Made by a program: the position numbers and the translations under genes
Origin: Solirubrum puertoriconensis
GTDB taxonomy: Bacteria; Bacteroidota; Bacteroidia; Cytophagales; Hymenobacteraceae
Assembly (NCBI RefSeq): GCF_001483135.1
Contig: NZ_LNAL01000008.1
Span: 62,001 to 126,000, forward strand
Direction of reading: 5' to 3'
DNA: 64,000 bases
Notes under the pieces: generated by a model
Databases searched by the model: none
Told to the model about the DNA's origin: nothing
What the model saw: only the letters and a program-made list of their open reading frames with translations
Shown: positions 38,941 through 45,445 of the stretch, piece after piece
Layout: each line of letters opens with the position of its first letter
Numbering within the stretch: the stretch's first letter is position 1

Positions 38941-40602
38941 TTATTCGTCGAGATACTGGTGCACAAACTTGATGGCCATGGCGCCCTCGCCCACGGCCGA
39001 GGCCACGCGGGCCATGGCCCCGGCGCGGCTGTCGCCGGCGGCGAAAATGCCCGGCACTGAGGTTTCGAGGGCGTAGGGTTCGCGGCGCTTTTTCCAGATG
39101 GGGGCAAACCGGGCGTCGGCTAATAAATCGCGGCCGGTAATTACAAAGCCTTTGCCGTCGCAGAGCAGGGCATTGCACAGCCACTCGGTGCTGGGTTTGG
39201 CCCCTATGAACACAAACACGGCCCGGGCGGGGCACTCCTGCTCGGCGCCGGTTTGATTGTGGTGTAGCACCACGGTTTCGAGGCTATCCTGCCCGCGCAC
39301 CTCTTTTATCTCGGTGTAGGGCAGCAGCTCGATGTTGGGCGTGCGCCCGATCTGCTCGATGAGGTAGGCCGACATGGACGCCGCCAACGACGCTCCGCGA
39401 ATCACGATGTACACCTTGCGCGCAAAGGCGGCCAGGTACATAGCCGCTTGGCCCGCCGAGTTGCCACCGCCCACCACGTACACATCTTGCTGGCTGCAGG
39501 AGCGCGCCTCGGTGCGCGCCGCGCCGTAGTACACGCCCGCGCCGGTAAGCCGCTCCATGCCGGGCACCGCCAGCTGCCGGTAGCTTACGCCGGTGGTTAG
39601 CACCACGGCGCGGGTACGCACCTCGCTGCCATCGGCCAGGGTAAGCACCTTGTATTCATCCTGCACGCACAGCTGCGTTACTTCCTGCGGCGACAAAAAC
39701 TCGGCCCCCAGGCGCACGGCTTGCGCCCACGCCCGGTGCGCCAGCTCGGCTCCGCTCAGGCCCGTCGGGAAGCCTAGGTAGTTTTCGATGCGCGACGAGG
39801 TACCAGCTTGCCCGCCGGGGGTTTGGCGCTCAATCAGCAAGGTTTTCAGGCCCTCGGAGGCGCCGTACACTGCGGCACCTAGGCCCGAAGGTCCGGCGCC
39901 CACCACCACTACGTCGTAGAGCGGCTGCGAGGCCTTGAGGGCCAAGCCCAGCTTTTCGGCAATGGTGGTGCGGGTAGGCTGCGCCAAGGCGGTGCCGTCT
40001 TCGAACACGGTTACGGGCAAGTCGCTCGGGGTGAGGCCCAGCGAGCTGAGCAGCACGGCCGCTTCGGGGTTAGTTTCGAAATCGAGCCACTGAAACGCCA
40101 CCATGTACGCTGCCAGAAAGTCCTTCAGCTCGTGCGACTGCGGCGACCATTGAAAGCCCAGCAGCCGCACGCCCTGAAAACGAGGCTGGTACTGCGCCTG
40201 CCAAGTAGCTAGCAAATCGTGCAGCGTGGGGTACAGCAGGTGCTGGGGCGGGTCCCAGGGCTTCATGAGGTAGTAATCGAGGTGCGCCTCGTTGATGGCC
40301 CGGATAGCAGCCTCGGTATCGGCGTAGGCCGTGAGCAGCACGCGCTTAGCCTCCGGAAAAAGGGTGCGCGCCTGCTCGAGCAGCTGCACACCTTCCATGT
40401 CGGGCATGCGCTGATCGGAGAGTACTAGCGCCAGCGGCTCGGCGCGGGCTTTCAGCTGGCGAATGGCCTCGAGCCCCTCGGCCCCCGAGCCAGCGCGCAG
40501 AATGCGGTAATCCTGGCGGAACTCCTGGCGCAAGTCGCGGTCGATGGCGGCAAGCACCTGCGGGTCGTCGTCGACCACGAGCAAAGCGGGCTTTTTGGGC
40601 AT
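38941..40602 (-). CDS. Response regulator fused to thioredoxin-reductase-like FAD oxidoreductase
   Basis: 553 residues from the ATG at 40602. Residues 4-125 are a receiver domain: acidic pair DDD at 11-13, phosphoacceptor Asp63 in LSDQRMPD, Thr in LLTAYAD, Lys near 107 in LMKPWD. A linker of about 90 residues (a thioredoxin-like region, by pattern) leads to a pyridine-nucleotide-disulfide reductase module from about 228: VVVVGAGPSGLGAA, VYVVGGGNSAGQAA and GIFAAGDSRAG. The redox CxxC of thioredoxin reductase is absent; the region reads VYYGAARTEA. Output is therefore probably a redox reaction other than thioredoxin reduction. The upstream gene on the same strand is the cognate-looking kinase. 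Confidence 0.92.
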   Translation of the reverse strand: MPKKPALLVVDDDPQVLAAIDRDLRQEFRQDYRILRAGSGAEGLEAIRQLKARAEPLALVLSDQRMPDMEGVQLLEQARTLFPEAKRVLLTAYADTEAAIRAINEAHLDYYLMKPWDPPQHLLYPTLHDLLATWQAQYQPRFQGVRLLGFQWSPQSHELKDFLAAYMVAFQWLDFETNPEAAVLLSSLGLTPSDLPVTVFEDGTALAQPTRTTIAEKLGLALKASQPLYDVVVVGAGPSGLGAAVYGASEGLKTLLIERQTPGGQAGTSSRIENYLGFPTGLSGAELAHRAWAQAVRLGAEFLSPQEVTQLCVQDEYKVLTLADGSEVRTRAVVLTTGVSYRQLAVPGMERLTGAGVYYGAARTEARSCSQQDVYVVGGGNSAGQAAMYLAAFARKVYIVIRGASLAASMSAYLIEQIGRTPNIELLPYTEIKEVRGQDSLETVVLHHNQTGAEQECPARAVFVFIGAKPSTEWLCNALLCDGKGFVITGRDLLADARFAPIWKKRREPYALETSVPGIFAAGDSRAGAMARVASAVGEGAMAIKFVHQYLDE

Positions 40603-40703
40603 AGTGGGATAATCAGGTAACAAGTGACACGCGATGAGCAACAGGCAACACGTACGTAGGTGGCTTTTTCAGCCTAAGGCATGTTGCGGGTTACCAATCA
40701 TTT

Positions 40704-42107
40704 TTAATCGGCCAGCGGCAGCCACACGCAAAACTCGGTGCGGCCGGGCTCGGAGTTGGCTTGCAAGCGCCCGCCGTGGCTGAGCACGATGCGCCGGGCA
40801 ATATCTAGCCCTAGGCCGGTGCCCTCGCCTACGGGCTTGGTGGTGTAGAAGGGTTCGAAGATGTGCGGCAGCACCTCCGGCGTAATGCCCGAGCCGCTGT
40901 CGATTACGCACACGCAAATAAACTCTCCCTCGCGGCGGGTCCGCAGCGTAAGCGTGCCCTCCTCGGGCAAGGCATCAATGGCGTTGTCGATGAGGTTGGT
41001 CCAAACTTGGTTGAGCGCCCCCGGCGAACCGTTTACCAGCACCAGGCCCGAGGCGTACTCGCGCACCACCTGAATGCGGCGCCGGCGCAGCGGGTAGCTG
41101 AGCAGGGCCAGGGTGCTATCGAGGCCGCCGTGCACATCGGTGGGCACCATGCCGGCGCCGCGGTCCATGTGCGAGTAGTCCTTTACGTTGCGCACCAGTT
41201 CCGAAATACGCCGGGCTGCCTCCTGCACATCGCGCACCAGCTGGCGGCTGGCTAGCTGGCCCTCCAGCCACTTTATTGCGGGCTGCCGTGCGTGCCTAGG
41301 TAGCGCCGACAGCACCGGCTCCAGAGCATCCTCATCGAGGCCGCCGCTGAGCAGACCGGCGGCTAGGTCGTGGGCATCGGTAATGCCTTGCTTGCGCAGC
41401 CAAGCCTCCAGCTCCTCCTCGCAATCGGCCTGCTCCAGCACCGAGAGCGAGGTACTAGCCAGCGCCGAGCGACTGGCCAAAGCCAGCAAAGGCGGCAGCT
41501 GCTCGGCCGGCACGCCAGCGGCCAGCAGCTCCTGCAGCAGCATGGGCTCGGCGCCGGTGCGGGCTGAGAGGTCGGCGGCGGCCCGGCTGATGGCGGCAGC
41601 CGGGTTGTTTAGCTCGTGGGCCAGGCCCGCGGCCAGCTTACCTAGGGCCCGCAGCTTGTCGTCGCGCTCCACGCCGCGGGCTTCTTCGCGCACCCGGTCG
41701 CTCATCAGGCCTACCAGGCGCTGCACCAACTCGGGACTTTGGTGCTCCAGCTCCGGAAACTGGCTGCGGTGCAGCATCAGCATGGTAGCATCGGCCGTAA
41801 CCACGCCCGTGGCGCTGGTTTGGCGCAGCCGCGAATACGGCAGCACGCCCGACACGGCCGGCGCCTCAAAGCGCAGAAAAGGCTCGCGTTGTCCTCCTTG
41901 CTCGCGCCACAGCTGCAACGCGCCGCGCAACAACACAAACATATGATCGGCGGCGTCGCCGGGCCTGAACAGCTCGGTACCAGCAGGTAGAAAACGCGCT
42001 TCGCTGTGCTCCAGCAACCAAGCCAATACCTCCTCGGGCAAACCCGCCAGCACGGGTATAGTGGCTAGGTCATCGGGCGTAACAAGTGGGGTTGTCGAGG
42101 TAGCCAT
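40704..42107 (-). CDS. Sensor histidine kinase with N-terminal cyclic-nucleotide-binding domain
   Basis: 467 residues from the ATG at 42107. Residues about 15-125 form a Crp-type cNMP-binding fold (FLPAGTELFRPGDAADHMFVLLRGALQLW). There is no membrane segment, so the kinase is cytoplasmic. The H-box is GLAHELNNPAAAI with His164. The ATPase region shows NLIDNAIDALPEEG (N), DSGSGI (G1), FEPFYTTK (F) and GTGLGLDI (G2). About 100 bases upstream of the receiver/reductase fusion gene, in the same direction; together they make a complete phosphorelay. The ligand of the sensor domain is unknown. Confidence 0.93.
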   Translation of the reverse strand: MATSTTPLVTPDDLATIPVLAGLPEEVLAWLLEHSEARFLPAGTELFRPGDAADHMFVLLRGALQLWREQGGQREPFLRFEAPAVSGVLPYSRLRQTSATGVVTADATMLMLHRSQFPELEHQSPELVQRLVGLMSDRVREEARGVERDDKLRALGKLAAGLAHELNNPAAAISRAAADLSARTGAEPMLLQELLAAGVPAEQLPPLLALASRSALASTSLSVLEQADCEEELEAWLRKQGITDAHDLAAGLLSGGLDEDALEPVLSALPRHARQPAIKWLEGQLASRQLVRDVQEAARRISELVRNVKDYSHMDRGAGMVPTDVHGGLDSTLALLSYPLRRRRIQVVREYASGLVLVNGSPGALNQVWTNLIDNAIDALPEEGTLTLRTRREGEFICVCVIDSGSGITPEVLPHIFEPFYTTKPVGEGTGLGLDIARRIVLSHGGRLQANSEPGRTEFCVWLPLAD

Positions 42108-42387
42108 GGCCGCGATGAATGATTGAACAGTAAGCCACACGAACGTAGGCAACCGGCAGCAAACAAGCTAGCCGCCGCATGAGCAACCTGCTCGGGCACC
42201 CTAGGTTTGGCCCATGCATCAGTTGCGCAGACGCAGCACCGGGCCGGATGCTTTATGCCATGCCTCAAAAATTTAAGCTGCCGCCGCGCCACCTCGTAAA
42301 AAGTAGCGCCACTAGAGCCGAAATAGCGTTTTTTGCCAAACTTTTCCGCCGAGCTGCGCATTAACCTAGAATACCCCTGAGCATTAT

Positions 42388-43773
42388 ATGGCCAAACTCA
42401 AGACCCTTTATTTCTGTCAGAAATGCGGTGCGCAGTCGGCGAAGTGGATCGGCCGCTGCCCCTCGTGCGGCGAGTGGAACACCTACGTCGAGGAAGTTAT
42501 TCAGAAAGAAGAAATTACCCCGGCTACCGCCTGGAAAGCCTCTACCTCGGTAGGCGGCACCAGCAAAGCGGCCAAGCCTAAAGCCCTAGGTGAAATCCTG
42601 TACGAGGAGGAGTCGCGCCTCGACACCCACGACGGCGAGCTGAACCGCGTATTGGGCGGCGGCCTGGTGCCGGGCTCGTTGGTGCTCATTGGCGGCGAGC
42701 CGGGCATCGGCAAAAGCACCTTGATGCTGCAGATTGCCATGCAGCTCCGCGATTTGCGCATTCTGTACGTTTCGGGCGAGGAAAGCGAGCAGCAAATTAA
42801 GATGCGCGCCGAGCGCCTAGGTCGGCAGCACCAGGGCCTGTACATCCTCACCGAAACCAACACGCAGAACATCTTTAAGCAGATTGATGCGCTGCAGCCC
42901 AACGTGGTGGTGGTCGATTCCATTCAAACCCTGCATTCGCAGCTTGTCGAGTCGGGGGCGGGCTCGGTAAGCCAGGTACGCGAGTGCACCACCGAGCTGC
43001 TGAAGTACGCCAAAGACACGGGCGTGCCGGTGCTGCTCATTGGCCACATCACCAAAGACGGCTCTATTGCCGGCCCTAAAATTCTGGAGCACATGGTAGA
43101 TACCGTGCTGCAGTTTGAGGGCGACCGGCACCTGACCTACCGCATTCTGCGCACCATTAAAAACCGCTTTGGCTCCACGGCCGAGCTGGGCATTTACGAA
43201 ATGCAGGGTTCGGGCTTGCGGCAGGTATCCAATCCTTCGGAAATTCTGCTGTCGCAGCGGGCCGAAACCCTCAGCGGCATTGCCATTGGCGCCACGCTCG
43301 AGGGCAACCGCCCCCTGCTAGTGGAGGTGCAGGCCCTCGTAACGCCCGCCACGTATGGCACGCCCCAGCGCAGCAGCACCGGCTTCGACAGCAAGCGCCT
43401 GCAAATGCTGCTGGCCGTGCTGGAGAAGCGCAGCGGCCTGCGCCTAGGTCAGCACGACGTGTTCCTGAACATTGCCGGTGGCCTGCGCCTCGAGGACCCG
43501 GCCCTCGATGCAGCCGTGTGCGCCGCCGTAGTGTCGTCGCTGAACGATATTCCGGTGCCCGGCGACGTGTGCTTGGCGGCCGAAGTAGGCCTGAGCGGTG
43601 AAATACGCGCGGTGTCGCGCCTCGATCAGCGCCTGTCGGAGGCCGAAAAATTGGGTTTCCGCGAGATGTACATCTCGCAGTTCAACGGCCGTGGCCTCGA
43701 CCTAGGACGGTTTGGACTAAAAGTTCACCCGGTTGCACGTCTCGATGAAGTTCTCAGCGGACTGTTCGGCTAA
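42388..43773 (+). CDS. radA: DNA repair protein RadA/Sms
   Basis: 461 residues. N-terminal zinc finger with Cys10, Cys13, Cys24, Cys27 (CQKCGAQSAKWIGRCPSC). Walker A GGEPGIGKST at 102-111, then the KNRFGS motif in RTIKNRFGSTAELGIYEM that is diagnostic of RadA. A Lon-type C-terminal domain (GLRLEDPALDAAVCAAVVSS, LSGEIRAVSRLDQRL) completes it. A DNA-dependent ATPase that drives branch migration in recombination and, in transformable bacteria, helps integrate incoming DNA. All four of its CCTAGG copies read as X-Leu-Gly codons. Confidence 0.97.
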   Translation: MAKLKTLYFCQKCGAQSAKWIGRCPSCGEWNTYVEEVIQKEEITPATAWKASTSVGGTSKAAKPKALGEILYEEESRLDTHDGELNRVLGGGLVPGSLVLIGGEPGIGKSTLMLQIAMQLRDLRILYVSGEESEQQIKMRAERLGRQHQGLYILTETNTQNIFKQIDALQPNVVVVDSIQTLHSQLVESGAGSVSQVRECTTELLKYAKDTGVPVLLIGHITKDGSIAGPKILEHMVDTVLQFEGDRHLTYRILRTIKNRFGSTAELGIYEMQGSGLRQVSNPSEILLSQRAETLSGIAIGATLEGNRPLLVEVQALVTPATYGTPQRSSTGFDSKRLQMLLAVLEKRSGLRLGQHDVFLNIAGGLRLEDPALDAAVCAAVVSSLNDIPVPGDVCLAAEVGLSGEIRAVSRLDQRLSEAEKLGFREMYISQFNGRGLDLGRFGLKVHPVARLDEVLSGLFG

Positions 43774-43978
43774 TCACATAAAAAGGGGATAATCACCTAA
43801 AAATGTGAGGCACGATATAGGATTTTATATACCTATTCGCCGTAACTTAGACCCAGCAATTGTCTTTTCCCGTGAATGACTTGAGTCACAACTATTATAA
43901 ACTCAAGCACAACGGGGCGGCCTCGGTCGCGTATGCTGATTGTTGTTCTTGTGCCACACCCCGATACCTAGCCGCCTG

Positions 43979-45445
43979 ATGTCTTTCGTCTCACGTCTTT
44001 CTGCTCTATCCCTGTTTGCACTGGGGTTGTTAGCCGCACCAGCGGCCGCACAGGCGCAGAGCACCGTGGTGCTCACCGGCAAAATCAACGGCAAAACCGC
44101 CGATACCGTAGCCGTATCGCTGCGCGAGCACCCCCTCGACCCCAAGGAGCAGCTTACCTACGCCCGCGTGGATAACAAAGGCGAGTTTAGGTTGGCCGTG
44201 AAGGTTGACGGCCCCACCAAGGCCGACCTTGTGTACGGCGACGATGTGGCCGGCCTGTGGCTGGAGCCCGGCACCAACATGGAGGTGCGCTTTAAGGGCG
44301 AAGACCTGGCCACCACGGTGAAGTTTAAGGGCAAGGGCGCCGAAGCCAACACCTACCTCGCCGATTTCGACGAGCGTTTTGTGGAAAACGACGGCTTTCA
44401 GGTGCTGCCCGACAATATTTCGCTTTACGAGGCGCCGTTCTTGTCGTTTCTCGACTACCGCCGCAAGGAGGAAATGAAATTTCTGCAGGACGTGAAGGAA
44501 GACCCCAACGTATCACCTGCTTTCCGCGACTATACCAAGGCCGAAATAGAATACAGCTACGCCAACGACCGCCTCACTTTTCAGGACCTGCGCGAGCAGG
44601 TAGTGGCCACCGAGGGCCGCCTGAAGATGTCGAGCACGTACTACGATTTCCTGAACGACGCGGCGCTGCTCAACAACCCCACAGCGCACCAAAACGAGAG
44701 CTACCAGGAGTTTCTGCTGAACTACGTGCACTACGCTGCTACGGCGGCGGGCCGCAAAAAAGGCGACCCGGAGTTCTACCAAATGTGCTATAACCTGGCC
44801 AAGGAAAAGCTGCAGGGCCCCATGAAGCCCATCATTATGGGCCGGGTGCTGCAGGAGTCGTTCCGCTTTGGCCACGTGAAAATGTCGGCGGCTATGCTGG
44901 AAGATTTTCGCAGCTCCGTTGATCAGAAAAACAAGCTGTACCCCGTTCTCAAAGCCGATTTCGACAAGCACAAGGACTTTGCTATCGGTTCGCCGGCGCC
45001 CAGCTTCAAACTGGTATCGGCTAGCGGCGACTCGTTGTCGTTGCGCGATTTTGCTGGCAAACTGGTGTATGTAAACTTTTGGCGCACCACCAGCGGCTTG
45101 TCGCTGCGCGACTTGCCCTACGCGCAGGAGCTGGCCAAGAAGTTTAACGGCCAGAACATTGTGTTTGTAAACATCGCCCTCGATGAAAACGAACCAGCTT
45201 GGCGCCAGCTGGTTACAAGCAAAAGGCTTTCGGGTGTGCACCTACGGGCGCCTGGTGGGCAGCGTGGCCCCTTGGCTCGTGCCTACATGCTGCAAGAGGT
45301 GCCGGCTTACTTCCTGATTGCTGAAGACGGTACTTTCCTGAACACCAAGCCCAAGCGCCTAAGCAGCCGTGCGGCCGTCGATGAAATAAAGGAATCGTTC
45401 GGTAAGGCCTCTACTTACAGCAGCGCCCTGCCTGCAGGCAAGTAA
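43979..45445 (+). CDS. Secreted TlpA-like thioredoxin-fold protein without CxxC (DUF4369-like N-terminus)
   Basis: 488 residues from the ATG at 43979, signal peptide cleaved near AQAQS. The N-terminal part (about 25-130) has the beta-sandwich pattern of DUF4369 (VVLTGKINGKTADTVAVSL, GLWLEPGTNMEVRFKG). A helical middle follows. The thioredoxin-like domain from about 355 starts IGSPAPSFKLVSASGDSLSL. The active-site region reads VNFWRTTSGLSLRD, so both redox cysteines are missing. It resembles the TlpA/AhpC-TSA lipoproteins of Bacteroidota but cannot act as a disulfide oxidoreductase by the usual route. Periplasmic. Confidence 0.85.
   Translation: MSFVSRLSALSLFALGLLAAPAAAQAQSTVVLTGKINGKTADTVAVSLREHPLDPKEQLTYARVDNKGEFRLAVKVDGPTKADLVYGDDVAGLWLEPGTNMEVRFKGEDLATTVKFKGKGAEANTYLADFDERFVENDGFQVLPDNISLYEAPFLSFLDYRRKEEMKFLQDVKEDPNVSPAFRDYTKAEIEYSYANDRLTFQDLREQVVATEGRLKMSSTYYDFLNDAALLNNPTAHQNESYQEFLLNYVHYAATAAGRKKGDPEFYQMCYNLAKEKLQGPMKPIIMGRVLQESFRFGHVKMSAAMLEDFRSSVDQKNKLYPVLKADFDKHKDFAIGSPAPSFKLVSASGDSLSLRDFAGKLVYVNFWRTTSGLSLRDLPYAQELAKKFNGQNIVFVNIALDENEPAWRQLVTSKRLSGVHLRAPGGQRGPLARAYMLQEVPAYFLIAEDGTFLNTKPKRLSSRAAVDEIKESFGKASTYSSALPAGK

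Follow-up and report, generated by a model that had tools for sequence, protein, structure and literature searches.

What does a two-component system control when its response regulator carries a flavoenzyme as the output, and this flavoenzyme has lost the dithiol of the enzymes it resembles? The question is raised by a locus of Solirubrum puertoriconensis that lies in a window of 64,000 nucleotides (the whole stretch of DNA analysed; assembly GCF_001483135.1, contig NZ_LNAL01000008.1, positions 62,001 to 126,000): a histidine kinase gene is followed, on the same minus strand and after 101 bp, by a gene encoding a receiver (REC) domain fused to a thioredoxin reductase (TrxR)-like flavoprotein. 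The original prediction, made from the DNA letters alone, had placed a kinase directly upstream of such a fusion, and the Pfam domains of the two products bear this out. From the sequence comparisons described below we favour, with moderate confidence, the interpretation that the fusion is a phosphorylation-gated NAD(P)H:FAD oxidoreductase, which would pass flavin electrons to an acceptor other than thioredoxin as part of a redox-stress module. The features of the fusion, with residues numbered from the ATG at 40602, are as follows:

38941..40602, minus strand: response regulator/TrxR-like flavoprotein fusion, 553 amino acids, ATG at 40602
40243..40593, minus strand: REC domain, residues 4-120 (Pfam Response_reg, 1.6e-16)
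40414-40416, minus strand: receiver phospho-acceptor D63, by conservation
39937..40182, minus strand: mycoredoxin/glutaredoxin-fold domain without redox cysteines, residues 141-222, by profiles and predicted fold
40135..40146, minus strand: S153-P-x-S156 where glutaredoxin has CxxC, by conservation and alignment to 2lqo
38944..39924, minus strand: TrxR-like FAD/NAD(P)H core, residues 227-553
39883..39900, minus strand: FAD-binding motif GAGPSG, residues 235-240, by sequence
39505..39531, minus strand: YYGAARTEA, residues 358-366, standing for the CxxC(D) of TrxR, by alignment
39454..39471, minus strand: NAD(P)H-binding motif GGGNSA, residues 378-383, by sequence and conservation

The core has the two-domain FAD/NADPH fold of low-Mr thioredoxin reductase. 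Pfam Pyr_redox_2 is recognised in the fusion with an E-value of 1.5e-33, the fold matches that of the TrxR 5usx (Z 34.6, root-mean-square deviation (rmsd) 2.1, 308 aligned), and the core is ~30% identical to TrxR. Both nucleotide-binding sites, which had been described as intact, have their motifs, GAGPSG and GGGNSA. Conservation was assessed in a main alignment of 150 distinct relatives and the window genome's own TrxR (L002); of the NAD(P)H-site residues, N381, S382, A383 and Q385 are present in 150/150 relatives and R402 in 149/150.

In the same alignment, the TrxR stretch G-V-S-A-C-A-V-C-D-G-F-F is aligned with G-V-Y-Y-G-A-A-x-T-E-A of the fusion family, with E365 at the position of the canonical TrxR Asp. 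The replacement motif is itself conserved: Y359 is found in 150, G360 in 147, A361 in 138, T364 in 122 and E365 in 148 of the 150 relatives. We extended the set to 189 relatives by adding plasmid and actinobacterial ones, and 186 of these could be scored for CxxC in the 30 residues before the NSAG anchor: none of the 186 has CxxC at the TrxR site, and all 186 have [YFWH]Y[GAS][GAS]. Three relatives lack the anchor; two of them (L079 and L080) have the same motif and no CxxC anywhere in the chain, and the third is L190. A conserved motif combined with the complete absence of CxxC argues for an active site that, as judged by alignment, is replaced and not decayed, in agreement with the earlier reading of VYYGAARTEA. 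A pseudogene was likewise rejected on the basis of the conserved motif and the open frame in the window; two relatives from the window's phylum (G164 and G358) have one in-frame stop each.

That the fusion could be an ordinary thioredoxin reductase that happens to carry a regulatory receiver, as some annotation names imply, is extremely implausible. While the TrxR fold, the ~30% identity and the name 'thioredoxin-disulfide reductase', given to 3 of the 40 plasmid relatives listed, speak for it, this reading is contradicted by the missing dithiol (no CxxC in 186/186 scored relatives); furthermore, the NCBIfam model TRX_reduct matches the fusion at 2e-68 with 230.4 bits, under the equivalog cut-off of 343.45, and the genome has a separate TrxR with CxxC, L002. 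Other relatives are annotated as 'FAD-dependent oxidoreductase'. The family is real and conserved, and is vaguely or wrongly named by annotation: some members are called thioredoxin-disulfide reductases although they are without the dithiol which that reaction needs.

The linker between the receiver and the core, for which a structure prediction had been suggested, is by profile comparison and predicted structure a mycoredoxin/glutaredoxin (Grx)-fold domain without its CxxC. All 15 aligned linker members match TIGR02200 at E <= 0.1 (best 2.1e-10), 9/15 match Pfam Glutaredoxin at E <= 1, and a profile of the linker finds mycoredoxin 2lqo with an E-value of 7e-9. The window's own linker matches TIGR02200 at 5.6e-6 (26.7 bits, under the 89.5-bit cut-off), and this segment has no Pfam family match. 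The predicted linker structure has a predicted local distance difference test (pLDDT) score of 90.6, and resembles thioredoxin/glutaredoxin-like folds, 3zit being the best match with Z 11.9 (77 residues at an rmsd of 1.5). Chains of GST, Spx and SspA match the model too, and the Grx-like assignment therefore leans on the profile hits. The linker thus resembles mycoredoxin-1 (Rv3198.1, 2lqo) and Grx-like proteins in profile and predicted fold, including the cis-Pro position (P196, Pro in 148/150 relatives), but has neither CxxC nor CxxS: it carries SPxS instead, with S153 in 143/150 and S156 in 116/150.

With no conserved redox dithiol in either the core or the linker, two dithiol centres are lost. 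The objection that the original prediction had raised against itself, a CxxC supplied elsewhere in the chain and lined up with the flavin, does not apply: there is no conserved Cys pair, the 6/150 proteins with some CxxC have it at other positions, and no column of the 150-relative alignment is invariantly Cys. The best Cys column, C369, is Cys in 112/150 and Phe/Tyr in 33/150. The FF motif (positions 367/368), named thioredoxin-binding in the available part of PMC9025218, is also missing from the fusion family in this alignment. As the FF motif is lost along with the CxxC, a substrate other than thioredoxin, as had been proposed, is likely.

Known systems provide partial parallels. AhpF and its TIGR03143 homologue, which rank second and third among the NCBIfam matches but score far under cut-off, similarly combine a thioredoxin-fold N-terminal part with a TrxR core. 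AhpF has two Cys in each part (as given in the available part of PMC8945050) and hence two dithiol centres, whereas the fusion has both pairs replaced and thus resembles an AhpF-like chain stripped of both dithiols. Bacillus FNR1 and FNR2 are PDB matches to the core at a lower similarity than TrxR (Z about 28). YpdA/Bdr and the ferredoxin/flavodoxin-NADP reductases are TrxR-fold enzymes without CxxC, and are not known to have a receiver or Grx domain. Finally, the REC + Pyr_redox_2 architecture is that of the TrxB response regulators: REC-thioredoxin reductase is tabulated as the 'TrxB' output class in the available part of PMC9953108, and the fusion is mentioned as a 'Mycobacterium-like combination' in that of PMC5847659. 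In these parts of the two papers the class is a name or a count only, with the cysteine loss, the Grx-fold linker, the cognate kinase and the zinc finger (see below) absent. Among the titles and abstract starts of the open-access literature we recognised no biochemical work on the REC-TrxR fusion or on the zinc-finger association, and neither the double loss of cysteines nor the zinc-finger link turned up in our searches of that literature. The fusion therefore belongs to a known class of receiver-TrxB fusions that is, as far as searched, uncharacterised.

The other half of this widespread pair is the kinase:

40704..42107, minus strand: partner histidine kinase, 467 amino acids, in which no membrane segment was seen by eye
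41748..41996, minus strand: cNMP-binding-fold sensor (Pfam cNMP_binding, 4.7e-9)
41601..41618, minus strand: H-box HELNNP with the phospho-acceptor His, by alignment
40710..41024, minus strand: HATPase_c catalytic domain (Pfam, 1.1e-26)

Pfam also recognises HisKA (E 5.1e-6), and the H-box, N-box and G boxes of a HisKA histidine kinase are all present; HE[LMVI]NNP is found in 110/116 aligned partner kinases, six having no match to the pattern. The sensor had been described as being of cyclic-nucleotide-binding type. The fold of this description stands, but the phosphate-binding cassette for cAMP or cGMP reads FGE...R, whereas the window kinase has an atypical SGVLPYSR, and binding of a cyclic nucleotide is therefore not supported by its sequence. 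Sensing of cAMP by the window kinase was rejected on the same ground. Some relatives (e.g. L117 and L130) keep FFGE. In the window kinase, ~110 residues with a few conserved positions separate the H-box from the next well conserved block, RIsxLV.

The receiver has the D-D pair, phospho-Asp, Thr and Lys of its class, fused to Pyr_redox_2. In our first division of the relatives into receiver types and others, where L064 (with a cyclic nucleotide-binding domain, cNBD) was placed among the 139 receiver types and L099 with the others because its open reading frame start had been called too late, D63 is conserved in 139/139, T91 in 137/139 and K114 in 138/139, and a kinase relative lies within 600 bp in 116/139. 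The corresponding figure is 60/80 for the named loci, which, being the best 80 of at least 586 confirmed relatives, lean to the receiver type. We then surveyed 395 genomes of the window's phylum at E <= 1e-60, the kinase survey being within this phylum. The enzyme core is present in 53 of these genomes and the kinase in 48, and the genomes with a receiver-type enzyme are the identical 48; no such kinase is present in the five genomes whose enzyme is only of the stand-alone or cNBD-fused form. The two genes are within 600 bp of each other in 41 of the 48 and 1.1-3.9 kb apart in five, and the pair is kept even though the genes are 29 kb apart in one genome (G372) and on two contigs in another (G231). 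Because of this identical, one-to-one distribution, the claim that kinase and regulator are partners is supported.

The correlation of evolutionary distances is less telling: it is 0.52 for kinase and receiver and 0.66 for kinase and TrxR-like core, and since the latter is the higher we did not use it as proof of pairing. These values, which may reflect common descent alone, could be taken to mean that kinase and enzyme are neighbours through shared stress regulation and not phosphotransfer partners, but the exact 48/48 distribution, unlinked cases included, and the intact receiver residues make this highly improbable.

The receiver is not the only input of the family. According to hidden Markov models (HMMs) derived from sequences of the set itself, the 189 relatives, a sample that leans to receiver types, comprise 170 with a receiver, 13 with a cNMP-binding domain in the receiver's place and six with neither (among them L204, 651 amino acids, in which these HMMs find neither receiver nor cNBD). 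On a tree of 103 rows (102 thinned relatives and TrxR), four changes are needed to account for the three types. The relatives on the tree or fetched come from at least nine phyla. As the cNMP-binding fold is found either in the receiver's place on the core or on the kinase, it seems to work on one and the same core in cis or, via the kinase, in trans. The exchangeable inputs, together with the loss of thiol chemistry from two domains at once and the linkage to a small putative partner protein (the zinc-finger protein discussed next), would also fit a core that is a redox sensor and not a working enzyme. In that case its NAD(P)H/FAD state would alter a protein-protein interaction or the phosphorylation of the receiver, and information would run from flavin to receiver and then to a partner, for instance the zinc-finger protein. 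We regard this as a serious though rather unlikely alternative: the catalytic-looking, strongly conserved Y-Y-G-A-A-x-T-E, aligned with the active site of TrxR, and the full set of cofactor motifs suggest turnover, and stand-alone forms without a receiver exist.

A UBP-type zinc finger (zf-UBP) is genetically linked to the pair. A zf-UBP protein of ~90 amino acids, or its domain, is encoded beside the enzyme or the kinase in 19/80 named loci, including that of Hymenobacter wooponensis (L087). In the window's phylum zf-UBP scores over cut-off in 36/395 genomes, 33 of which also have the enzyme, and 22/37 zf-UBP places are within 5 kb of it. Among 159 genomes of the Frankia phylum (Actinomycetota), 35 have the enzyme, as do 22 of the 32 genomes with zf-UBP. 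A named UBP zinc finger is next door in 4/10 annotated plasmid loci; on the Streptomyces fungicidicus and Tsukamurella plasmids, enzyme, kinase and zinc finger are overlapping genes. In two loci (L141:4628-6766 and L081:1-1315) the zf-UBP forms the tail of a Kef-like antiporter (Na_H_Exchanger + TrkA_N) beside the enzyme and kinase genes, and it is found in similarly long frames in G280, G339 and G183, in the first two between enzyme and kinase. Kef antiporters have ancillary flavoproteins, KefF and KefG. The two arrangements are alike in the genetic association of a Na_H_Exchanger + TrkA_N antiporter with an NAD(P)H flavoprotein, and differ in that here the antiporter has a zf-UBP tail, the flavoprotein is TrxR-like and the functional link is inferred. 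The closest solved relative of the Cys-rich zinc-finger protein is 2ida. Recognition of ubiquitin tails was rejected as its role: the position of the CGR arginine, which we take to be the ubiquitin contact, reads CCD.

These neighbours bear on what the enzyme may reduce. YpdA/Bdr, relatives of TrxR without CxxC, are a model for direct reduction of a disulfide by FADH2, and the fusion could similarly be a disulfide reductase without a CxxC of its own that acts on Cys pairs of the zinc finger, an adjacent thioredoxin or a low-molecular-weight disulfide. On plasmids of Rhodococcus (L165) and S. angustmyceticus (L166), the cNBD form follows dnaJ, cbpM, clpB, trxA and the zf-UBP gene, an order reminiscent of transmissible stress-tolerance islands; the Tsukamurella genes are adjoined by S-(hydroxymethyl)mycothiol dehydrogenase; the zinc-finger protein is, as noted, rich in Cys; and the fusion has a weak match to TIGR04018 (YpdA; 68.7 vs 339.9 bits). 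We nevertheless judge such an activity unlikely, as the thioredoxin-binding FF is lost, C369 has Phe/Tyr as its substitute in 33 relatives, and trxA adjacency was seen in 2/10 annotated plasmid loci.

The preferred interpretation, an oxidoreductase with a non-thioredoxin acceptor, can be laid out as a two-component system with an enzyme as its output. The activity of the kinase would be set by a stress or redox cue acting on the domain with the cNMP-binding fold, and the histidine of HELNNP would hand its phosphate to the receiver's D63. Once phosphorylated, the receiver could pack differently, together with the cysteine-free Grx-fold hinge, against the FAD/NAD(P)H core, which would gate hydride transfer from NAD(P)H to FAD. 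Electrons would leave the flavin directly at Y-Y-G-A-A-x-T-E, the site of the TrxR CxxC, for a small electrophile, a quinone, O2 or a partner protein. The module may serve in redox or proteotoxic stress, with the UBP-type zinc-finger protein, in some species a Kef-type antiporter tail, as a putative partner or target. In its boldest form, which we consider distinctly improbable, the phosphorylated receiver would switch on a cysteine-free NAD(P)H flavoenzyme that acts on the UBP zinc finger, either free or as the antiporter tail, so that the kinase signal gates an antiporter or a stress protein within seconds and with no transcription. As the comparisons stand, the family represents a probable case of direct control of an enzyme by phosphorylation; its replacement active site is conserved, its inputs (a receiver or a cNMP-binding fold) are exchangeable, and its partners make up a defined, testable list: the kinase, the zinc-finger protein and the antiporter. 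The original prediction is confirmed as an observation and partly supported as an interpretation; what goes beyond it is the identity of the linker, the conservation of the replacement motif, the existence of stand-alone forms and of forms fused to a cNBD, and the link to a UBP-type zinc finger.

Several observations weigh against this interpretation. YYGAAxTE is placed at the flavin site by alignment to canonical TrxR, which is a weak spot, and the whole-chain model is poorly predicted at 271-279 and has a predicted template-modelling score (pTM) of 0.66. Since trxA adjoins two cNBD-type loci, that branch may have a thioredoxin-linked role. As to the kinase, 20/80 named loci, some of them at contig ends, lack a kinase relative within 600 bp, and the sensors vary, with PAS domains in the partner kinase of L152. 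The zinc-finger link is qualified the most: as the genomes are related, P values for its co-occurrence with the enzyme assume too much independence (by genus it still holds for 19/22 zinc-finger genera), 20/53 enzyme genomes have no zinc finger over cut-off, and the window genome's single zf-UBP gene (L164:1435-1704) sits on another contig. In Actinomycetota 9/41 zf-UBP places are within 5 kb of the enzyme, with all 53 enzyme places counted, and in 6/10 annotated plasmid loci the gene table, which is incomplete, names no zinc finger.

As for the gene calls, the open reading frame of the fusion spans 38941-40641 on the minus strand and would encode 566 amino acids when started at TTG 40641; the family alignment and the start of the receiver point to the ATG at 40602 (MPKKPALL..., 553 amino acids). 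The frame of the kinase is 40704-42152 (minus strand) in full, with the ATG at 42107 as the probable start. The window's genome has one copy of the full-length fusion, and the closest named relatives, among the best 80 of the 586, are from Hymenobacter (71-76% identical). Of phage records, 36 match the fusion, and one of these, a 'Bacteriophage sp.' contig with 36% identity, extends over 80% or more of the query. A promoter/terminator scan returned no promoter-like signals (0.7 expected) and three terminator-like ones (3.2 expected).

Other genes were seen around the pair. In the window, 43940-45442 encodes a protein with a C-terminal Redoxin/AhpC-TSA domain, which is probably unrelated to the pair since it lies on the opposite strand, with the gene at 42388-43773 in between. 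'Low temperature requirement protein A' (LtrA) is annotated near the pair in two plasmid loci (L174 and L168), and a cluster of neighbours in four further loci (cluster 17; L115, L140, L155 and L160) is LtrA-like by eye only. Finally, an aldo-keto-reductase-like frame, identified by eye, lies between kinase and regulator in Aquimarina (L099:6145-6981).

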